Source: Alitta virens (lineage: Eukaryota > Annelida > Polychaeta > Phyllodocida > Nereididae). Taken from it: a stretch of DNA of 64,000 bases. Under the pieces are notes generated by a model that saw nothing but the letters and a program-made list of their open reading frames with translations, ran no database searches and was not told where the DNA came from. The translations under genes and the position numbers were made by a program. Positions 44,901-57,890 of the stretch are shown in pieces (the stretch's first letter is position 1; each line of letters begins with the position of its first letter). The stretch spans positions 1,267,501 through 1,331,500 of the forward strand of contig OW028583.1 in assembly GCA_932294295.1 (NCBI GenBank), read 5' to 3'.

Positions 44901-47900
44901 TTGTGGTGTTATATTTATTTAAGTGGTGATCTGTAATTGAGGTGTTTTTATGGAAAGCTTCGACAGTAATAAGAAAAGATACAATTTTATCTTTCTAAGT
45001 CTACCATTTTTATATATTTATTTAGCATTTACTGTTTTGTATAAATCTACTGTAAATAAATTCAGTGAGTGTTCAGTAAGTATATAAAAGCCTTAATTAT
45101 ATAAGCTACAGGGGCAGATCTAGGATTTTTGGAAAGGGGGGGGGTCAGGCATAGGACTTGTACGAGCAGCGAAGGTACGATGTCCTTCTAGGGGGGTCCG
45201 GGGGCATTTTTGCCAGAGAAAAGAGGGGCTCAGGACCCCCTGACCCCCTCTAAACCCACCCCTGAGCTAGTTCTCATAAAAGAGTACAAAATTCTTATAG
45301 TCTTCAAGGCTATGGAGTGCAGTCTCGTTCCATATGGTAAATAATAACATTCAGAGTTTAGATTATGTTACTGTCAACAATGATATTTATAGCCTTACTA
45401 ATTGTCTGTCATATGTTCAATATCGTCATATGTTCAATATCGTCATATGTTCAATATCGTCATATAGTTTTCCTCCACTCGAGTGATCTTGCCAGTTATT
45501 ATATAGTAAACGCTTGGGGCACAAATTGTTCTTGCGTTTGACTTAGGAATACGGTATTGTGTTGTGGCCTACAGCAAAAATTGTCCTAGCGTTTGACTCA
45601 GGAACATAGCCTCGGGTAATAGAAACTCTACATTTATATTATAGCCTTGGGTCATGGAAGTTCACAGAATCTGATGTTATGATATTGGAGTGCTAATTGC
45701 CAAGCTGGTCAGTGTAGCCTTGACCACAGAGCAGGACACTTCATTCAGGATGGTTGCTAAGGATAGTGGCTAAGGATGGGTGCTATAGTGATGGTTACTA
45801 GGGATTGACAATGGATGTCTTCATGTCGATATCATGGTCCATGGACCTCAAGATCTGGAGTCTCAACTTCAGGGAGTATTTTTGTCTTTTTAAACTACAC
45901 TTTGTGTTCTTGTTTGTGATGGAATGACAAACATTTGTTAAAATTTCCAACTCGAGTTTTTGAAAGGTTTATTCTAATCGACTCGGGAGTTTCAAGTTTA
46001 GGCCAACACAGCTGGTTACCAAATATTAGCAATTTGTGCAACGGTGTATACATTTATTCAGTGCCTTACGTACGTTTAAGGTGTATTAGATTTAGAAACA
46101 TATGGATTTTTAATATCTGTGGTATCAAATATTTTGGCCAATGCTAGGTGTGACCCCACAAAGGCCTAGAGCCTGTAGTGGGTCATCCTGGCTTTAAAAA
46201 ATAGAGAAGACCTTTCTGTACCATGATATAATTAGAGAATAATTAATTCAAGATTTGAATGTACACCTTCCATTATTGATACATTAATTTAACCGGTTAT
46301 TATCCGGAGTCACAGACCCAAGCTATATCCTGCTTAATAGATTATATTATGAGTTATATTTTAACTAATAAGTCTGAATTATAGATACAATTTGACATGA
46401 TATCTATATGAGTTATATTTAACTTATATAAGTCAGAATTATTGATACAATTTGAGGGAATATCTCTCTCTTTGTGCACCTCCATTATTCATCAAATATT
46501 CCACTGTGCTGCTAGAAACATAGCCTCAGTATTTGGCACTGTTTTTGTAGACATGCAGTAATCACATAATGAATCTTGAGAGTCAGAATGCAAGTGATCA
46601 TCAGGCGACCAGTCATCCTAATCAAGTGACTTATTAACAATTGCAATTAGTGATCAATGAGTAGTGATTAGTAATCAAACATCAAACTATATGATATATG
46701 GTGATAGTAACCAAACCATATCCACCAATATCCCTGATATACCCAAGTGCCTCATGTAGGTTAAGACACATAATATTGAATCCTTATCAAGTGAGTATTT
46801 AACAATTAACAGTCAATTAGTGATTAAGTGATTAATTAGCCAACCATTAGTTGTATGATATGTGATCAAAGGTTGCCACCTTGTGTGTAGGCCAGCAGAG
46901 TGTGTACTAGTTGGTATGTTCATTGGGTGCTACTTTTCAGTGAGATTTTCCATTTTTTCACATTTCATCTTAAAAATTGGTAGTAAGATGTTACCTGAAC
47001 GTCCATGGAGCCATCCAATATAACCAAAGCATTATTTAATGCAATCAAGTACAATTCTTTTTCCTATTGGGAGTGTGCTTCATTTCTTAGCCAGTCCATT
47101 GTAGACTGATCTATCAGTCCCTACATCAGAGATGTTAGTCAATTGTACCATGTAATTTGTGTGTTAATTGAGTGGCTGTCAGAAGCAGAAGTAATGATGA
47201 GATAAGACTAGGCATGTCAATATATTTAATGATAACCACTCAGTGGGTGTTTTTGAGTGTGACATTGTGTGCCTGGCTGTTCTTCCTCATCCAGGAACTC
47301 TGGCGATATCACTCCTTAGGATCTCTACTGAAACATATCATAGCATCTAGCATATTAATTTCCAGTTAAGTTGATATTTATGTCCATGTAAATGCTACTT
47401 ACATTGCTACAGGCAGAAGTTTTTACTCTATTTCATAGTCATTAATTAGGAAAGTCACATGTTGAATAAGTTAAGGAATATATAATCAGAATGCGAGTGA
47501 TCATCAGGCGACGAGTCGTGCTAATCAAGTGACAAATTAACAATTGCAATTAGCGATCAATGAGTAGTGATTAGTCACCAAGTATCAAACTAGTAGCCTG
47601 AGTTGGAGATGAAAGAAGTCCAGTGGTCTTGAGGATCTCTGTGCTGAAACATATAATAGCAGTAAGTTCCATTAATTTCCATTTAGGTTGATATTGATTT
47701 CTATGATAATGCTACTTACATTGCTACAGGCAGAAATTATCACTCTATTTCATAGTCATTGATAAGGAAAGTTACATGTTGTATTCGGTAAAAGAATTAA
47801 GAAATCTGCTTTAGGTATAGAATGGGAGTGATCATCAGGCGATGAGTCATCCTTATCAAGTGACTAATTAACAATTGCAATTAGCGATTAATAAGTGATG

Positions 47901-49656
47901 ATTAGTAATCAAGCATCAAACTATTACCCAGGAGTTTGATGATATATGTTGATAGAAACACACCCATTATGTACTCAAGACTGCCTCATGTTGGTTTGGA
48001 AGTATGGGCAAAATATCCTTACAAGTGTATTTCTTTTGGGAAATATGGCAGTCAATGCCAGGTGTGACCCCATAAAGGCTAAGAGCCTCTTGTGGGTCAC
48101 CCTTATGAATTAAAACAATACATTATTCTTGTAATTAACATCAGTTTTTTATATGATTAATATTAGCAGAAACTGAGCCAAGCGATGTCAATGTTGTTCA
48201 ACAGAGTACCATCTCATTGGATAGCAGTTATTGGTGATACAACTAAGAAAATGCCACATTTCTTTTGGCATGTGATTTTCATTTAAAGTTGACTCAAGTG
48301 TGTTGAAATTGTAGATTATAATTGCTACATCCTTTTATGAAGAAGTTCAAGGGTTGGTAGTGAGAAAATGCCACACATTTTGGTATGTAATATACAATTT
48401 GACATACTATAGTGAAGAATATAACAAACAGGAATATATTTGATATAGCTGATAGATTCCGAAAGAAACTGTGTCGTATATCAATTATGTTAGACGCCTT
48501 TTTCGCCCTACAATATACATTTTTTCCAATATGCACTTTGAATATGTTCTGTGAATACTCGTCAAGATCAGAAGTATTGACGGATAACTCACGGCCATCA
48601 GTACCCCACTCAATATTGTCTATCATTGCGTCTAGTTCTGCTGAGCCATCTGTAACCTCATCTGATGTAGTGTCCGTCTGATTCCTGTGTCTGTCATAAG
48701 AAATAGAAGAGGGATTATTATTATGAAGCTATACATGAATAATGCACAGTTATATATTAGCTATGTTAAAACAAGACACTTACGACGCCTATGAATGCCG
48801 CCAGATTGTGCATGGTATCGAGCAGATCACGGGTTTGCTGTTTATCTAGGGTTGCACCCTTTTTGGTTGGAATTTAGTCCTGATCATCTACTGTCTATAC
48901 ACGCAAATGTAGAGACAGTCTACCTTTGTATCTCTGGAGCGTTAGAAATTTTCTTGAAATAATTTCTCAGTACCATAGAAATTGGCCCTTGATTTTATTT
49001 CTGCCCAGGTTGTAGTATTTACGGTTCAGTGTGTTGTTTGCCATTTTATAGTATAGAAAACAGTCCGAGATGAGTCTTGATCAAGTCTTTGTGGGAACGA
49101 GATGATGTAGAGAGTGAGTGTTAAGTCTTTTATACCACTCAATATATATCAGTATTAGCATATTGTATTCACATATATCAAATGTCACGTATCATCACAG
49201 ATGAGTATATATATATAATAATAGTTTACTTAATGGTTAACATTATGAATGGGTAGCCGTGTTGTAGTTATCTGTCATTACAGTTTATAACTATATGTAG
49301 CAAAAGTAAGGTGTTAGAAGAGTCATTTCTGGCACAGCAGGTTCAATATGTTCTAACAACATATTAATAGTCTGTAAATCCTCAGAAGTTAAGGACACCT
49401 GTTCTTCCTTCGTAGTACTATTAGTAGTCCTGCATACTGCTGTTGTACATCCTTCTTTAACCAAGTAGTAAAAACACCCCAGATGTACAGTTGCATCGAT
49501 TTCGTCAAACGCTAAAGCGGGTATATAGTACATCATGTTCACAAACTGTTGCAAGGGTAATGAAACTGTCAACTCCTCCTTAAGGACATCATCCTGAACA
49601 AATGAGAATAAGGTTATAACCAAGCTAAGAATACATATCAATAGTAGTATAACTGA

Positions 49657-49695
<39 letters not shown>

Positions 49696-52600
49696 CTTAC
49701 CTTATTATCTGTCAGCTGAATGGTTACACCCCCATTTATGCACATAACACTGAGTGTTAATGCCGTATTAATAGCAAGACTTGTACGGCTACCACCTACA
49801 AGCTCTGGAATTGTGTTAGCAACATTCTCGTACTCCCTTTGCAAATACTTTAGAAATAATGCTGTACCCTTGTAACTCTTCCCAGTATACAACGTTGAGG
49901 GTTAACAAAAGCTTCGTTTTATCGAATCGTGTTGTTTTAGATCTGATAAGAAGTAGATCAGAATCTTTAAGCAAACCTTCGCAACGTAGTATTATACATA
50001 TCTCATTTGTATTAACCATATTGATCAATACATCTGCGTAATCCCTTAATATCTCCATAGTGAGCTATGCAATAGTACTAAAGATGATATCTGATCACTC
50101 ATGGTTAAAACTCCTCTATATATACCTGGGGGGAGTACTACATTAACTATACTAATTAAAAGTAGATCATTATATGCATACCTTGAGGGCAGTACAAACA
50201 TGTTGTTACTAATCACCGGTATTAACTATGCTCATTAAAGTAGATCGTGATATGCATACCTTAGGAGCGGTACTCCTATGGTAGTAATAATCGCTAGTAT
50301 TATAACTATGTACTTATACTGATAAAATGGAATGATATAACACACAGAATGTATTGATGGAGATATATTTATTATAGTATACATAGATATAGCATAGTTC
50401 TTAAGATAATAGATTAATGTGTAATAGTATAATATGTAGTGTTGTAAATCTGGAGTATATATGAATAACTCATCTGTGCAGTATTAACAGTAGAACACGA
50501 CGATTATAATCGTAACAATATATAGTAGAACATGAAGCGTATAATTGCAGTAATATATCTTGATTAATAAGTGATATGTAGATACAATGATCTAGCTATA
50601 TTCTATCATGTACATACTGATACTAAATATAGTAGCTTAAGGTGTTATCAATATAGTTATCGGATCACAGGCTGCCCATCGATTATCACTGTTGTCGAAG
50701 TTGTGGCACGAGGGTCTCGCATATGTGAACTATTGCTAGAATGGGTGTGCAGGGGTCTAGGTGGCAAGGGTTTAGGTGTACAGTGGTGACATGCTTGGAG
50801 GTTCTCTAATGTTGCGTGTGTGGTGTAACAAGCTGCTAAGTCAGTCAAGCCCTTCCATTTGGCTTCCAATTGGGGGAGAAACATCAGAAGCTTGGTAAAT
50901 TCGTATTTTGTCAGCTTAATCCCCCTCTGGGTCGGGTGCTCAGACGTGGTGGACATATTACGGAAGAAACTGTGTCATATGTGTTAACATTACTTACGAC
51001 TCCTATGAACGCAGCAAGATCATTCATTGTGGCCATTAGATCTCGCGCTTGTTGTTTATCTAGCATAGCTCCTTTCTTTGTGGGGATAAGACAATAATCC
51101 TGGTCATCGATGGTGTAAATACGAATGTGTAGAGAGACCTTCCCCCTGTATCTCTGGAGGGACAAGAACTTCCTGGAGCTGATCTCTCTGAACCAGAGGA
51201 ACTGTCCTTTTACCTGGACTTACATCTAGGGACTTGTTTGATTGAAGGACTGCGTTTATTCTGTAAGCCAAAATAAATAAATTAGTAACAATGGTGTTGC
51301 TATAAAATTACATTTAGATGTAGGTAAACTATAAACACAAGTAAGCGCTCACCGTTCCATAATAACATCAGGAGTAATGTTATGCTTTGGTTGGCATGTA
51401 TGAACACTTCTCTCTCCAATCCAGAGTGGTTAATTGTGAGTCGAGCTTTGTCATCTTTGTTCGGATGCTTTTTCATTAACCAAATCCATGACATTGGCAT
51501 GTTGAAAAGCATATTTTTATTTACCATTTAGTTGCGGTACGAATGAACAGAAAATATCACTTAAGATAGATTCAGAATGCAAGTGATCATCAGGCGACGA
51601 GTCATCCTAATCAAGTGACTAATTAACAATTAGCGTCAGCTAGTATTTAAATATCAAACTATTAGCCAGGATTTTGATGATATACGTTGATAGTAACACA
51701 CCCAATATTACTGGAGTACTTCATGTAGGTTTGGAAAATTCTGTAGTCATTTTTTTTTATAGGAAATACATATTCATCTCTGCCAGGTGTGACCCCGTAA
51801 AGGCCAAGAGCCTCTTGTGGGTCATCCTATGAATAAATTAAGGTGTGTGAACAGGGAATACTTAATTATAAAAAAAAAAATACATTCTTGACATTATTGA
51901 TAGCACTATTCCATATGATTGTTATTAGCTAAACGTATCAGATAAAGTACCATATTTCATTGGATAAAATATATTGGGTGACACAACTAAGAAAATGCCA
52001 CTTTGTTATTTTTTTGGCATGTGATTTTCATTGACAGTTGCCTCGAGTCTAGATTGTGGATTCTATTTGATACATTTATGTAAAAAGTTCAATGATATTG
52101 ATATGAATAAGAAAATTTCACGTTTGTGGTATGTGATTTTCATTTTTAGTTAAATCCAGTTTATGAAAATCATTGTAGATTTTAATGGGAAGTTCAAGGG
52201 TTGATAGTGTGATATGAGTAAGCAAAATGCCACTCTTTTTGGTATGTGATTTTCATTTTGAATTTACTGAAGTCTATTTGATCACTCTGAAATCTTAATG
52301 AAAGGGTTGGTTGGTAGACATTGGTGCCACCCAAAAACTTGAGATTATATTTGTTGAAGCTCATTCACTATCTTCCTTGATGAATTGTTTGACATGTTGT
52401 AGAGAGTTTCTGTCAGTAGTCCATCAGTTGTCCCATCTGGTTAGCCTTGTAGGCATTCCTAAAAGTAAATAATTAATTCTTGAAAATGGAGAGTTATGGC
52501 CAATTCACTGGTGTTAGCACATTAATCAAAATCATAATGTCTACCTGAAAAAAAAAACCATGTTAAGCAAGTTATGCAGATTTTCTGTAAGACACCTTAT

Positions 52601-55600
52601 TTTGTCAGGTCAGAGTAAGATGCAGTAATAATTTATATGTGCAGTTATTTCAGTCTGTTTGAATGACCTCTAAGGTTAACATGTTGTTTAACATAATTCA
52701 CACTTTGTCTTGGATGGCACCCATTATGTCAAACTGACAAAGAGCCGAGCTCCTCTTGTATCGCTGAAGCGTGCTCTTCTTAATCTGTCTCCATTCCACA
52801 GCTTAGGAATAGCTCTTGCTGTATATGTGTAACCTTGTACAATTGTTCCAATGAAATGTGGTCTTTGTGTCTTTTGGGGAAAGCAGGAACTTTACAAATT
52901 CTGATATGTTGTTGAAAGTTTGCTCATTGTCTTTAATTAATCTGAAAAGCATAGCCCCCCTCTGCCATATCATAAGTGACATTGAATTATCAAAAATCCC
53001 TGCACATCTTAAGCCTGATGTTAACATTGCTTACCATTACTAATGATCATGTATCTGCATGATCTGACAACTTTATACTTTTTTTAAAACTCTGGCACCA
53101 CCACTGGAATCAGGAGTGACATCCAGCTGCTCTCCTCTAGAACTGTTATAAGCACAATGGGCTTTCAGCTTGTAGTGCTGACATTTGCTGATGTCCTCAA
53201 TGTTTTGTGTGTCATGTAACACTGTTTAACAGATAATATTCTCTGAAAATGCTGAACTTGTATCGTGATAATAGTTTCATGCCTTTCTGTGTTGGATGAA
53301 ATGATGTTATAGACATTTTCCTGAAGAATTGGTGACTTATATCACCCGAATACTTTGTTTTCTTTATGTTATTAGAACATAAATATGAAAAAATATATAA
53401 AAACATTCATTTAACAGATAGAACTTACCTCTTCAGTAACTCTGCAAAGGGCAGGTATTGCCTCATCAAATCCCTCGTCTGTTGCTTATTCAGCATGATG
53501 CCTTTTGTTTTGTCTGCATTAGCAAATAGTCTTGGTCGTCCATTGTGTAATTATGAAGGGACACATGTCACAATCGTAATACCTTGATACTCCCTAACCA
53601 TGTTAACCCCATCCCTTATAGGGACATTAGCCCACTGATCAGCATCGATAATCTGCCTAGCAAAGTAGATCCTGTGTGTGCAAATTATTGGGATTCCACT
53701 GTGTTCCAACATGCTTTCCCCCTGGATATAATACATAAATAACGTTTCTTGGAATGACCAATGAGGATCCTCAGCAATTTCTGACAGTGTAACGTTGTAC
53801 ACTAATGCATAAGTTGTCTGATAACTTGCATTGTGCATGCTGCTAATGTTGAATGAGCAAATAGGTCAATGCCAAGAACTTCTGACTCCCCAATTGTTGT
53901 CGCACATACAATAATATCTCTAACCCTGGGAGGGGAGCTTTTTAAAAGCATTGGGAAATTAACACTGTCGTCAGCCAATGCCTTGGTAAATGGTCATTAG
54001 CATAACATAATTTTGGTTCTTGCAAACAGCACAGGAAATATACCATTGTCAACGCGGTATCCTAAAATAAAGTGTATGTCGTAAGCTTCGGTATTATATA
54101 CAATTTTCTTGGTGTTGTGGAGTAATTAACCATTCACAGACTTCCTCGGTTGTGTTGGAACCACAGTGACTGAGGTGTGAACTCGTTGTTTCTGCCCAAG
54201 TCGCATGTACTGTCTGACATACTAAGAAGTTGGGTGTGTGTCTCTTTAAGTCAAAAGTAAGGTCTGTTGTGGTTGGCATATCATTGGCAAGTTGAGCATA
54301 GCTGAGTATGGCAAACCTCTCATATCTGACATTCAGGTTATTGACATTTATAGCCTTTTTTCACATGTTATAATGTCATTCTGGTAAGTTTCAAAATGAT
54401 GAAATATTCGGCTTCCTTATTCTATAATAGCACAAATGGTCAAGTCATTTACTGTATCCACAACTCTGGAGCACTGCTTGCATTTGTAGAAGCGATCACA
54501 AGTATTTGTGGATTCTCACCTTTGAAGACCCTACTATCATAAACAGTTTTCAGTACAGCATGTACTACAACATTTCGCAACTATGTTCTATGTCTGGTGT
54601 TCTTGTTAAATAGTTGCATAATTTTGTTGACGAATCCTTTGTAATGCTATGATAGTGCTCATCTTTTACGTACAGAAATGTTGTCTTTGCATCATTGACA
54701 AGTTGCACGTGGCTGCTATGATTAACAAGTTGCACTTGGCTGATTAATAATCTAAATTAAGATTTTACAACCTTTCTCCATGCACTGTACAGAAACGGCT
54801 TACATGCTGTCCATAGGAGTGAGTTGAACACAATTTTCTCATTATCAAACTCAATACCTTGTTTCTCTTTGTAAAACTGTGATGGTTTCTGAACTTGCAA
54901 TTATAAAAGCTGTTTACTCACAGTATTCCAGTAGCATTTTGGTGTAAACATGGCAGCCTGCCTCTTTCTATGTTGATAAATCTGCAGAATTTGTGTGTTA
55001 ATCCCCCTGGTATGTCAGCTGTATTTATGGTATTCATATTACCAAGTGCTGTAGCTTGTCCATGTTGAAATATTACATGATACTGCTGAATGCCATGGCA
55101 TTCCTTTAAATACTTCTTGGTGAGTATAATTGGCTACCAGTTGAATGCAATGAAATGCTCAGTTATGCAATACTAATTGCAATCAAGCATATTCAAGGTC
55201 AAGTGTCAATGAAATCGTACCCATTACTGTAAGATGTCACTGAACCACCTGCATGCTTGTTGAACTTATATAATAGTTAATTGCAATCAAGTCATCGTAA
55301 AATTGCAATTGATAGGGGTCCTCAATGAATAGTTCAACAGCAGATGTAGTGTCATACTTTTAAGGCATTGTATCAATTGTTATATACAATTGGTCTATTT
55401 ACATAACTAAATGCAATTGGTGCGTTTTATTTAAATTACAAGGCATGCATTTACCTGTTGCCTTAGGGTGCTCTCATTGACAGATTACTTAAGTTTACTG
55501 ATAGCTTGTGTTACATGGATTTCATTGTAAATATGAATAGGAATGGTAACCATTGAGACTGAATACTGTGTGACACTTGCAATTATTTGAGTGAATGTTG

Positions 55601-57890
55601 ACAGCTTTTTGACATTTAAAATATTTCCACTAATAATGTATAAATTTCTTGTTGAAAAGAATATTAGCTACAAAATCCTGTGAATTTCATTTGCATTATG
55701 TGAGCATGAATTTTGGTTGGATTTTAAAGTAGTTTCTGACTTAGAAATTGAGCTTTCAATATAGTTTGTATTCGGAACAAAATGCAATTAATGACTTGAA
55801 ATATCACTTACGCTATTCGTGATACTTGTTTCCCAAGATGACAATAGAAAAGGACACAAAATTAAGTCCTGTGATTTTCATTCAGAAATTTGCATCATCT
55901 GTAGCCTAATGGTTAAGGCTGTACTGAACTGCATTCTCCTGTTTCTTTGGTTGTTTCATAAATTCAATTCTTTGGTTTTAGTGAAGTGCTACTTTGTAGG
56001 TTTTTTGGAGCATTTTTTTGTGGCCTATTGGTTAAGGCTCAGTCGCGTAAATTTTCTTGGGCTGTTTCCTGTTGTTCTTGGTTTCTTGAATTAATGGGGA
56101 GAAAAAGTGAAAAAGACAATAAGATGACGTCACTACACCATTGTTGCATGGATGACATCACAATGTAGATGATGTCATTAAACAATAATTATCCACTATG
56201 GTGACAGTGACCTCTGGTACTTTTTCTCCCCATTGTTGAATACAGCACCTGGAGGGTAAAAGCTGAAATTACCTAGGGGCAGGAGCTTACATATGGTGCA
56301 GTAGTGCAAAAGAATTTAACCAGATATATGTCACATATTAAGGTCTTTGGTATGATTGACAGCTACCCACGTGCTGTGAATGTGCTCTAGGCATGTGACC
56401 TTGACACTGCCTAATTAACCAATGCACACAACTTCATTTAGGCTATCACTGCACAGAACTTGTTTATGCATTGATGTCATCTTCGTGTGCATTTAATTAC
56501 ATGGGATGTTAAAGAGTTGTTGTTGTGAAGGACAGAACAAAATGTACTAGAAATTTTCACAAGGTGGCACTGTAGCAGTTTTGTCAGATAAGCACACCAG
56601 GTGGCTGGCTATACATATATGATTGTTATAATGCCCTCAGGTATGCATGTGCAGGTTGCATACACATATCATTAAGAGAAAAGACCTCCGAGATTACCAC
56701 AGACTTATTGTCATCCCGTGATAGCTCAGCTGGTAGAGCGGAGGACTGTAGAGGTATACACACTGACATCCTTAGGTCGCTGGTTCAAATCCCGCCCGCG
56801 GGATAATTTTATTCAATTTATTTTTATCCGAATACTTCAAGTTTATTAATTAGAACTGCTATTTTCATGGGTCACACTACATGACGGATTTTAACTGATG
56901 ATTGACAGTTTATGGAGGGCTGATAGAGAACATTTAGGTAACAATACAACACAGTTAGTTTATGATTTACTATGCGGAGAGTAACACTGGTAATTACTCT
57001 TATGGTGCTACTATTACATTTCAGTTTCATAAGCTGGGTTAGGTATCTTAACACACGAAGGTTTGTTTGCATGTGTGCTTGGTTAATTTATTTTGATTTC
57101 TATTCTTTATACCAATTATTTCACTGATTGTGCAATAGATTGGTGCAGAAGAAGTCTATAGTAAAAAGAAATATTAACAAGGTGGCACTAGTGCTGGCAT
57201 TTTCACAAAATCCACCAGGGGGCTTAGCCATGTGTCGCAATGATGCAGGTGCATGCCCTCAGGTGTGCCTGCTTAGGTAGCGCATATCATTAAGAGAAAA
57301 GACCTCAGTGATTACCCAGGACTTATTGTCATCCCGTGATAGCTCAGCTGGTAGAGCGGAGGACTGTAGAGGTATACACACTGACATCCTTAGGTCGCTG
57401 GTTCAAATCCGGCTCGCGGGAGATTTTTAATTTTGCTACTAGCTGGAGAACCTGTAACTTATGTTTCCTCATATCTGTACTCTCACAACTAATCCAAACA
57501 AGAGAAAGTGTAGTTTATCAAACATAACCATTAAATTGTTATGCAGAATATTTGGCTATATTCTCCAATGAAATGTGCTTATCCAATCAGATCTCTTCGT
57601 TCATACCATGTGACTGTCCAATAGTTTGTTATATTGGATTGACAATTTATATATATTGGACAAATAAAAGTTATATTTGACAGAAAAAAAAGATGTATTG
57701 GACCGATAAGTTATATTTAATTCTTTTTTTTTTTCAGAACAAACAAGGCTTTTTATTTGTATTGGAGAATATAACAAATAGTGGATGGAAAGTCATCCAA
57801 TATAGACTATATTGGACATTATAAAGAGTTTTATTAGGACCTATATTCAGAAAGCTATGTTGAACTCAACTAGCACCAGTCCTCTATCTG

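Follow-up and report, generated by a model that had tools for sequence, protein, structure and literature searches.

Probable remnants of Polinton/Maverick elements carrying PC4 and CARD-like genes in a KICS2 intron of the annelid Alitta virens

We analysed a stretch of 64,000 nucleotides of Alitta virens DNA (hereafter the window; C11:1267501-1331500), in which the region at 46.1-55.1 kb contains decayed copies of a PC4 gene, a CARD-like gene and pieces of a DNA polymerase B, all of them on the minus strand. Related genes were found in multicopy Polinton/Maverick elements of the same genome, and the region very probably descends from such elements. A preliminary description, made from the letters alone, had placed minus-strand coding-like segments and direct-repeat modules here, inside an intron of KICS2. 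Both were present at the positions given, and the host gene was supported by a plus-strand frame at 39.3-39.7 kb that matched KICSTOR subunit 2 with an E-value of 1.8e-08. Taken as a whole, that description was right about the layout and the PC4 domain, but not about the status of an open PC4 copy. The genome assembly searched below (G000) comprises 671 Mb in 23 contigs; L numbers denote loci fetched from it, and P numbers (P0005, P0015 etc.) denote proteins obtained from database searches. As a control, the same protein queries were run against the reversed window, and no match was obtained at E ≤ 0.1.

When the translated segments were scanned with profiles, the Pfam family PC4 (PF02229) was detected at 50911-51219 on the minus strand with an E-value of 9.4e-08 and 31.9 bits, above the cut-off of 25. 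This copy, designated B, was recovered at 32.8 bits in the genome-wide PC4 scan, and it is one of three, located at approximately 53.56-53.24 kb (A), 51.22-50.66 kb (B) and 49.07-48.37 kb (C). Exon 1 of copy B (50983-51216), which carries the PC4 domain, is open and shows 95% DNA identity over 242 nucleotides to locus L020. Its own start is lost, and only the second part of exon 2 was found (50660-50974; 77% over 105 amino acids, 6e-50), the first part, present in L020, being missing. Because of these two losses, copy B is not an intact gene. In copy C, exon 1 has internal stops (48772-49068; 64% over 102 amino acids, 3.5e-36) and exon 2 is truncated (48369-48677; 53% over 109 amino acids, 1.9e-33). 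Copy A is represented by remnants of exon 1 (53464-53564; two joined pieces, 9e-06) and exon 2 (53236-53364; 2.7e-08). The preliminary description had counted one open and two broken copies; the number three stands, but copy B is open over exon 1 only and none of the three is intact. Over 219 nucleotides, copies B and C agree at 68%; copy C is therefore no recent duplicate of copy B. The best-scoring sampled locus for copy C was L017 (68% over 627 nucleotides).

Between two of these PC4 copies lies a second gene, to which the preliminary description had given no name, and which we call CARD-like because its scores fall under the Pfam cut-off. Exon 1 (49695-50064, minus strand) has an internal frame break and was matched in two stretches, at 96% and 82% (3.4e-54), and exon 2 (49294-49593, minus strand) is open and was matched at 87% over 100 of 100 amino acids (1e-58). 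Among the sampled loci, L020 was again nearest, with 89% DNA identity over 855 nucleotides. A second decayed CARD-like gene considered at 52.7-53.05 kb was dropped at a best E-value of 0.11, and PC4-like folds considered within CARD-like exon 2 received no support from sequence comparison.

Remnants of a DNA polymerase B were also detected. A single-frame translation of 53391-54891 on the minus strand, with X at the stops, retrieved one protein, P0015, among 659 candidates (1.2e-7), and P0015 bears the Pfam domain DNA_pol_B_2 (9.7e-14). In the reverse comparison, P0015 aligned with the window at 54.5-53.9 kb with an E-value of 9e-19 and at 54.70-54.64 kb with one of 0.001; other places in the window reached 0.29 only. 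The exonuclease part of the polymerase lies in more than one frame at 53931-54515 (minus strand; tblastn with the genome-copy polymerase, three joined pieces, 1.9e-17), followed by a piece corresponding to query residues 593-653 at 53808-53990 (minus strand; 9.7e-09). A short piece of the N-terminal part is at 54640-54702 (minus strand; 0.008 with the genome-copy polymerase, with a 41-nucleotide DNA match at 80%). A remnant of the exon preceding the polymerase frame was found at 51348-51489 (minus strand; 79% DNA identity over 143 nucleotides, 2.3e-27). Thus, the neighbouring frames described earlier as decayed and protein-like are polymerase pieces at 54.7-53.8 kb, and a protein search proposed for 53.6-55.1 kb yielded a DNA polymerase B. 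A relationship of the frames at 54.5 kb to replication protein A had been guessed from the letters, and was dropped after DNA_pol_B_2 was found in P0015. Two further observations concern this end of the region. Polymerase residues 1032-1105 are weakly matched at 54634-54876 (4.9e-05), a position that does not fit the order of the remaining pieces, and a protein-like minus-strand frame of 71 amino acids at 54918-55133 showed neither a Pfam family nor a significant match to the polymerase frames used as queries.

The genome was then searched for further copies, as the preliminary description had proposed, and P0015 gave at least 71 scored matches (1522 candidates): 19 at 96-98% identity, one at 89% and 51 at 78-81%. 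Two copies were read at both ends. Each starts with AGTAGTTACAGGGCGACTATAAAA and finishes in its inverse, so that the inverted ends begin with AG, and both are flanked by 6-bp target-site duplications, ATCGAG and CGTCAC. One copy, on contig C2, measured 19.1 kb. C2 and C12 carry almost identical copies (99.95% over 6226 bases, 99.97% over 3776), and therefore the copying is recent. The polymerase frame of L004 contains DNA_pol_B_2 (1.7e-41), and the integrase of L012 contains rve (8.7e-14, above cut-off) and a Chromo match just below cut-off (4e-05, 23.9 bits; cut-off 25.1). Assembled from pieces, the gene order from one end inward is a 125-amino-acid exon, the polymerase frame, and frames of 136 and 179 amino acids. 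The second block starts at the far end and runs on the opposite strand, with frames of 179, 377 (integrase with chromodomain), 143, 185, 473, 238 (P-loop), 117 and 136 amino acids, then the genes for PC4 and the CARD-like protein. The 238-amino-acid frame is an ATPase candidate (P-loop; FtsK 0.03, below cut-off), the conserved 473-amino-acid frame is a capsid candidate, and no match to a maturation protease was found among the element frames scanned. By the polymerase, the integrase, the ends and the target-site duplications, these genome copies are Polintons/Mavericks. A third copy (L010 and L005:1-135), of which only the left end was read, is embedded in an array of repeats whose unit measures 1.8 kb.

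Relatives were also found among database proteins, nine among 167 candidates with the PC4 pieces and five among 273 with the CARD-like pieces, all from a source labelled ena and one also from jgi. P0005, P0007 and P0011 are 98.5-99.5% identical, and P0015 98% identical, to the genome copies; therefore, some of the ena samples contained this species or a close one. No relative was confirmed in viral contigs scanned with the PC4, CARD-like and polymerase queries, and none was found in bacterial and archaeal contigs scanned with PC4 exon 2. The one polymerase piece queried against phages gave no match. Seven proteins were queried against NCBIfam, without a family, and seven against PHROGs, with weak matches only, the best being a 'transcriptional regulator' family for PC4 exon 1 (0.00042).

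The PC4 gene is closely associated with the polymerase across the genome. In the PC4 scan, the best 150 of 568 candidates were scored, and all 150 were above cut-off. A PC4 match followed within 16 kb downstream of at least 48 of the 71 polymerase matches, at a median distance of 8.2 kb and on the opposite strand in 48 of 48 cases, and none of the 71 had a PC4 match upstream. Random placement gave 0.27 such downstream cases on average and at most 3 in 500 trials, as compared with the 48 observed. PC4 is thus standard cargo of these Polintons. For a closer view of the cargo, downstream pieces were fetched for 16 of the 71 polymerase matches (eight of 8-10 kb and eight of 3.5 kb). PC4 and CARD-like exons occurred together in 12 of the 16, with CARD-like exon 1 broken or partly matched in three of these (L017, L019 and L029). 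The absence of the pair from the other four tells against a constant pair. Of these, L024 contains a CARD-like gene but no PC4, L018 contains only a diverged PC4, and L025 and L027 contain neither, with a PC4 match of L025 lying just beyond the fetched piece. As a side observation, 102 of the 150 best PC4 matches were not the nearest downstream of a polymerase match, and they include many of the 35 matches with a 100-amino-acid frame. Six of the 102 are found between 28.45 and 28.76 Mb of C11, most of them spaced by about 50 kb.

The database relatives point to a PC4 gene of two exons, with exon 1 above the PC4 cut-off and a weaker half-match in exon 2, and to another gene that is similar to CARD in its first exon. 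The PC4 protein apparently contains two PC4 domains joined by an acidic linker, as judged from the exon-2 half-matches, from a typed composite of the window with two PC4 stretches, and from L018. At L018:1983-2510, two PC4 stretches stand in one uninterrupted frame of 176 amino acids (1.1e-11, 44.5 bits). The scores of exon 2 itself are less favourable to this view: the frames of six relatives reached 13.4-16 bits (cut-off 25), with half-matches of 0.0086-0.057, and the profiles of exon 1 and exon 2, when compared with each other, reached only 0.6%. The polymerase match adjoining L018 is 89% like P0015, yet a diverged ATPase candidate nearby (Pox_A32 0.0032, below cut-off) has no more than 33% identity to its counterpart in L012, which suggests that the element is a mosaic or that a different family adjoins it. 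The ratio of nonsynonymous to synonymous change (dN/dS, Nei-Gojobori) was calculated between subfamilies, for L012 against L016 and L020, with PC4 exon 1 left out of the counts and with two synonymous distances above 1.6, which are unsure. CARD-like exon 1 gave a value of 0.11 and CARD-like exon 2 values of 0.08-0.17; PC4 exon 2 ranged over 0.11-0.16, and the 473-amino-acid frame over 0.07-0.08. With such low ratios, which indicate purifying selection, both cargo genes look like selected, maintained proteins.

The likeness of the second gene to CARD was judged mainly from relatives. When the exon-1 sequences of eight relatives were scanned singly, CARD (PF00619) was the top family in all eight, over most of its length. 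A profile of nine CARD-like sequences matched a profile built from 13 CARDs of the same genome at 87.4% (E 3.7e-06, 79 columns), and a PC4 control against the same CARD profile gave 0.2%. Several results argue the other way. The eight scores, 15.4-22.8 bits, are all below the CARD cut-off of 23.9; in the typed window composite, viral GP3 (0.0014) outscored CARD (0.013, 15.9 bits); a profile search of solved structures with the CARD-like domain returned no CARD; and its predicted structure was useless, with a mean predicted local distance difference test (pLDDT) value of 43. The window exon-1 piece alone scored 13.4 bits with CARD, also below cut-off. A genome-wide CARD scan covered the best 150 of 272 candidates, all above cut-off, and the CARD-like type of the window was not among the matches listed. 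Of these 150, 111 lie in frames of 93 (24 matches), 103 (28) or 108 amino acids (59), dispersed across the contigs and mostly with identical scores. Three such loci were fetched, L040, L041 and L042, with CARDs of 48.7, 39.7 and 44 bits, above cut-off. Two of them, L040 and L041, have an upstream frame of at least 900 or 986 amino acids resembling the Polinton polymerase (6e-09 and 2e-16), which Pfam does not recognise; L042 showed no polymerase-like frame within its 9 kb.

The remaining features of the region are its repeats. A non-coding module is present in two copies, at 47819-48400 and 51574-52146, which are 69% alike. When 51760-52290 was searched genome-wide, only two places were found, itself and 48056-48400 of the window at 69%. 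This module is therefore a local duplication and not a dispersed element part; the shared modules described previously do exist, but the main one occurs nowhere else in the genome. Shorter local repeats, a 107-nucleotide family and others, were found at 46583-47939 by direct-repeat comparison within the window, and the genome-wide search covered the main module only. Farther downstream in the same KICS2 intron are two plus-strand tRNA genes (56715-56803 and 57333-57421). The last exon of KICS2 is probably at 58.13-58.34 kb, as judged from the ending of the protein.

From these results, we are highly confident that the region represents old Polinton/Maverick insertions, antisense in the KICS2 intron, which have decayed, been rearranged and in part been duplicated locally. 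The earlier proposal of an old endogenous virus or large DNA transposon with a PC4 gene is borne out by the PC4 gene in multicopy Polintons and by the polymerase pieces in the window. Several observations sit uneasily with this reading. The window gave no match at E ≤ 0.1 to the integrase or to the capsid and ATPase candidates, and no element start with three or fewer mismatches. The capsid candidate itself has neither a family nor a structure match, its model being unusable (pLDDT 35). Moreover, the polymerase and the PC4 and CARD-like genes face each other in the sampled elements and share a strand in the window. The relic is therefore classed as Polinton-derived and not as a complete Polinton, since the integrase and the element ends were not found, and the shared strand requires that the block was rearranged or that it stems from more than one insertion. 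The number of insertions is probably two or more, because the sampled elements have one PC4 gene each, as compared with three in the window, and because copies B and C are so unlike each other although copy B is 95% like a genome copy.

Two other explanations were considered against these Polinton insertions. The three PC4 copies within 6 kb, together with the locally duplicated flanking module, could be read as a tandem, lineage-specific expansion of a host PC4 gene with pseudogene copies and no mobile element, as the preliminary description had also suggested. However, a PC4 match follows at least 48 of the 71 polymerase matches of the genome, always on the opposite strand, polymerase pieces lie in the window itself, copy B resembles an element copy far more closely than it resembles copy C, and the best PC4 match of the genome, possibly the host gene, is on another contig. 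An expansion is not needed when multicopy Polintons in the genome carry the same gene, and, barring an assembly fault behind the co-location of PC4 and polymerase, we regard it as extremely improbable. The relic could also have been co-opted by the host, with an open exon still expressed and working, perhaps as a decoy that counters young Polintons. In favour of this, copy B has an open PC4 exon 1, 95% like L020, and CARD-like exon 2 is open over 100 residues. This is very improbable as well, given the lost start and partial exon 2 of copy B and the frame break in CARD-like exon 1. In the Polinton-derived relic we see ordinary decay, with no gene whole and no function demonstrable.

The young copies, on the other hand, suggest how the cargo might work. 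The chromodomain integrase would integrate the element and the protein-primed polymerase would copy it. Replication of the protein-primed kind displaces a strand that needs covering, and from the anatomy of the element we consider it reasonably likely that the PC4 protein acts as the strand-covering replication factor on the displaced single strand. The CARD-like protein may bind and disturb a CARD-dependent death or immune pathway of the host, a proposal from the same anatomy that we regard as somewhat doubtful. Equally tentative is a broader scenario, in which polymerase-B elements repeatedly acquired CARD cargo, both the diverged type in the Polinton family of the relic and, in other families, CARD-only genes of about 100 amino acids next to a polymerase-like frame, in more than 100 copies altogether. 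The cargo would serve as decoys, so that the element can multiply with CARD-dependent death or immune signalling left untriggered, and the double-PC4 protein would be the element's own single-strand-binding replication factor. Polintons form a link between transposons and viruses with double-stranded DNA. Cargo seemingly suited to strand-displacement replication and to interference with death signalling of the host would point to a virus-like existence within an animal, and through it the question of virus-like behaviour in animal Polintons becomes directly testable. In addition, many of the best 150 CARD and best 150 PC4 matches may be genes of mobile elements, and the counts of immune and transcription genes in this genome would then be inflated. 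A Polinton link to PC4 or to a CARD domain was not found in the literature searched, a scope that did not extend to mobile-element databases. Two findings look new: the PC4 and CARD-like cargo of an animal Polinton and, at two other loci, canonical CARDs of about 100 amino acids next to frames that resemble the polymerase.

Polintons/Mavericks are grouped with adintoviruses, and the genome copies share their defining features: a protein-primed polymerase B, a chromodomain integrase, inverted ends beginning with AG, a 6-bp duplication and opposed gene blocks. Unlike the Polintons/Mavericks of the literature searched, the elements described here carry a PC4 gene and a CARD-like gene. The former resembles PC4/SUB1 (positive cofactor 4) in its PF02229 match above cut-off in exon 1 and the weaker half-match in exon 2, but differs in that the element protein is apparently a double PC4 with an acidic linker and is encoded by a mobile element. 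The latter resembles CARD proteins in that CARD is the best family for exon 1, also by profile-profile comparison, but differs in scoring below the Pfam cut-off and in having a second exon of 100 amino acids without a family. Herpes- and poxviruses encode CARD or pyrin-only proteins. These belong to other virus groups, and the use of a death fold on host signalling is what the CARD-like protein, if it acts as proposed, would share with them.

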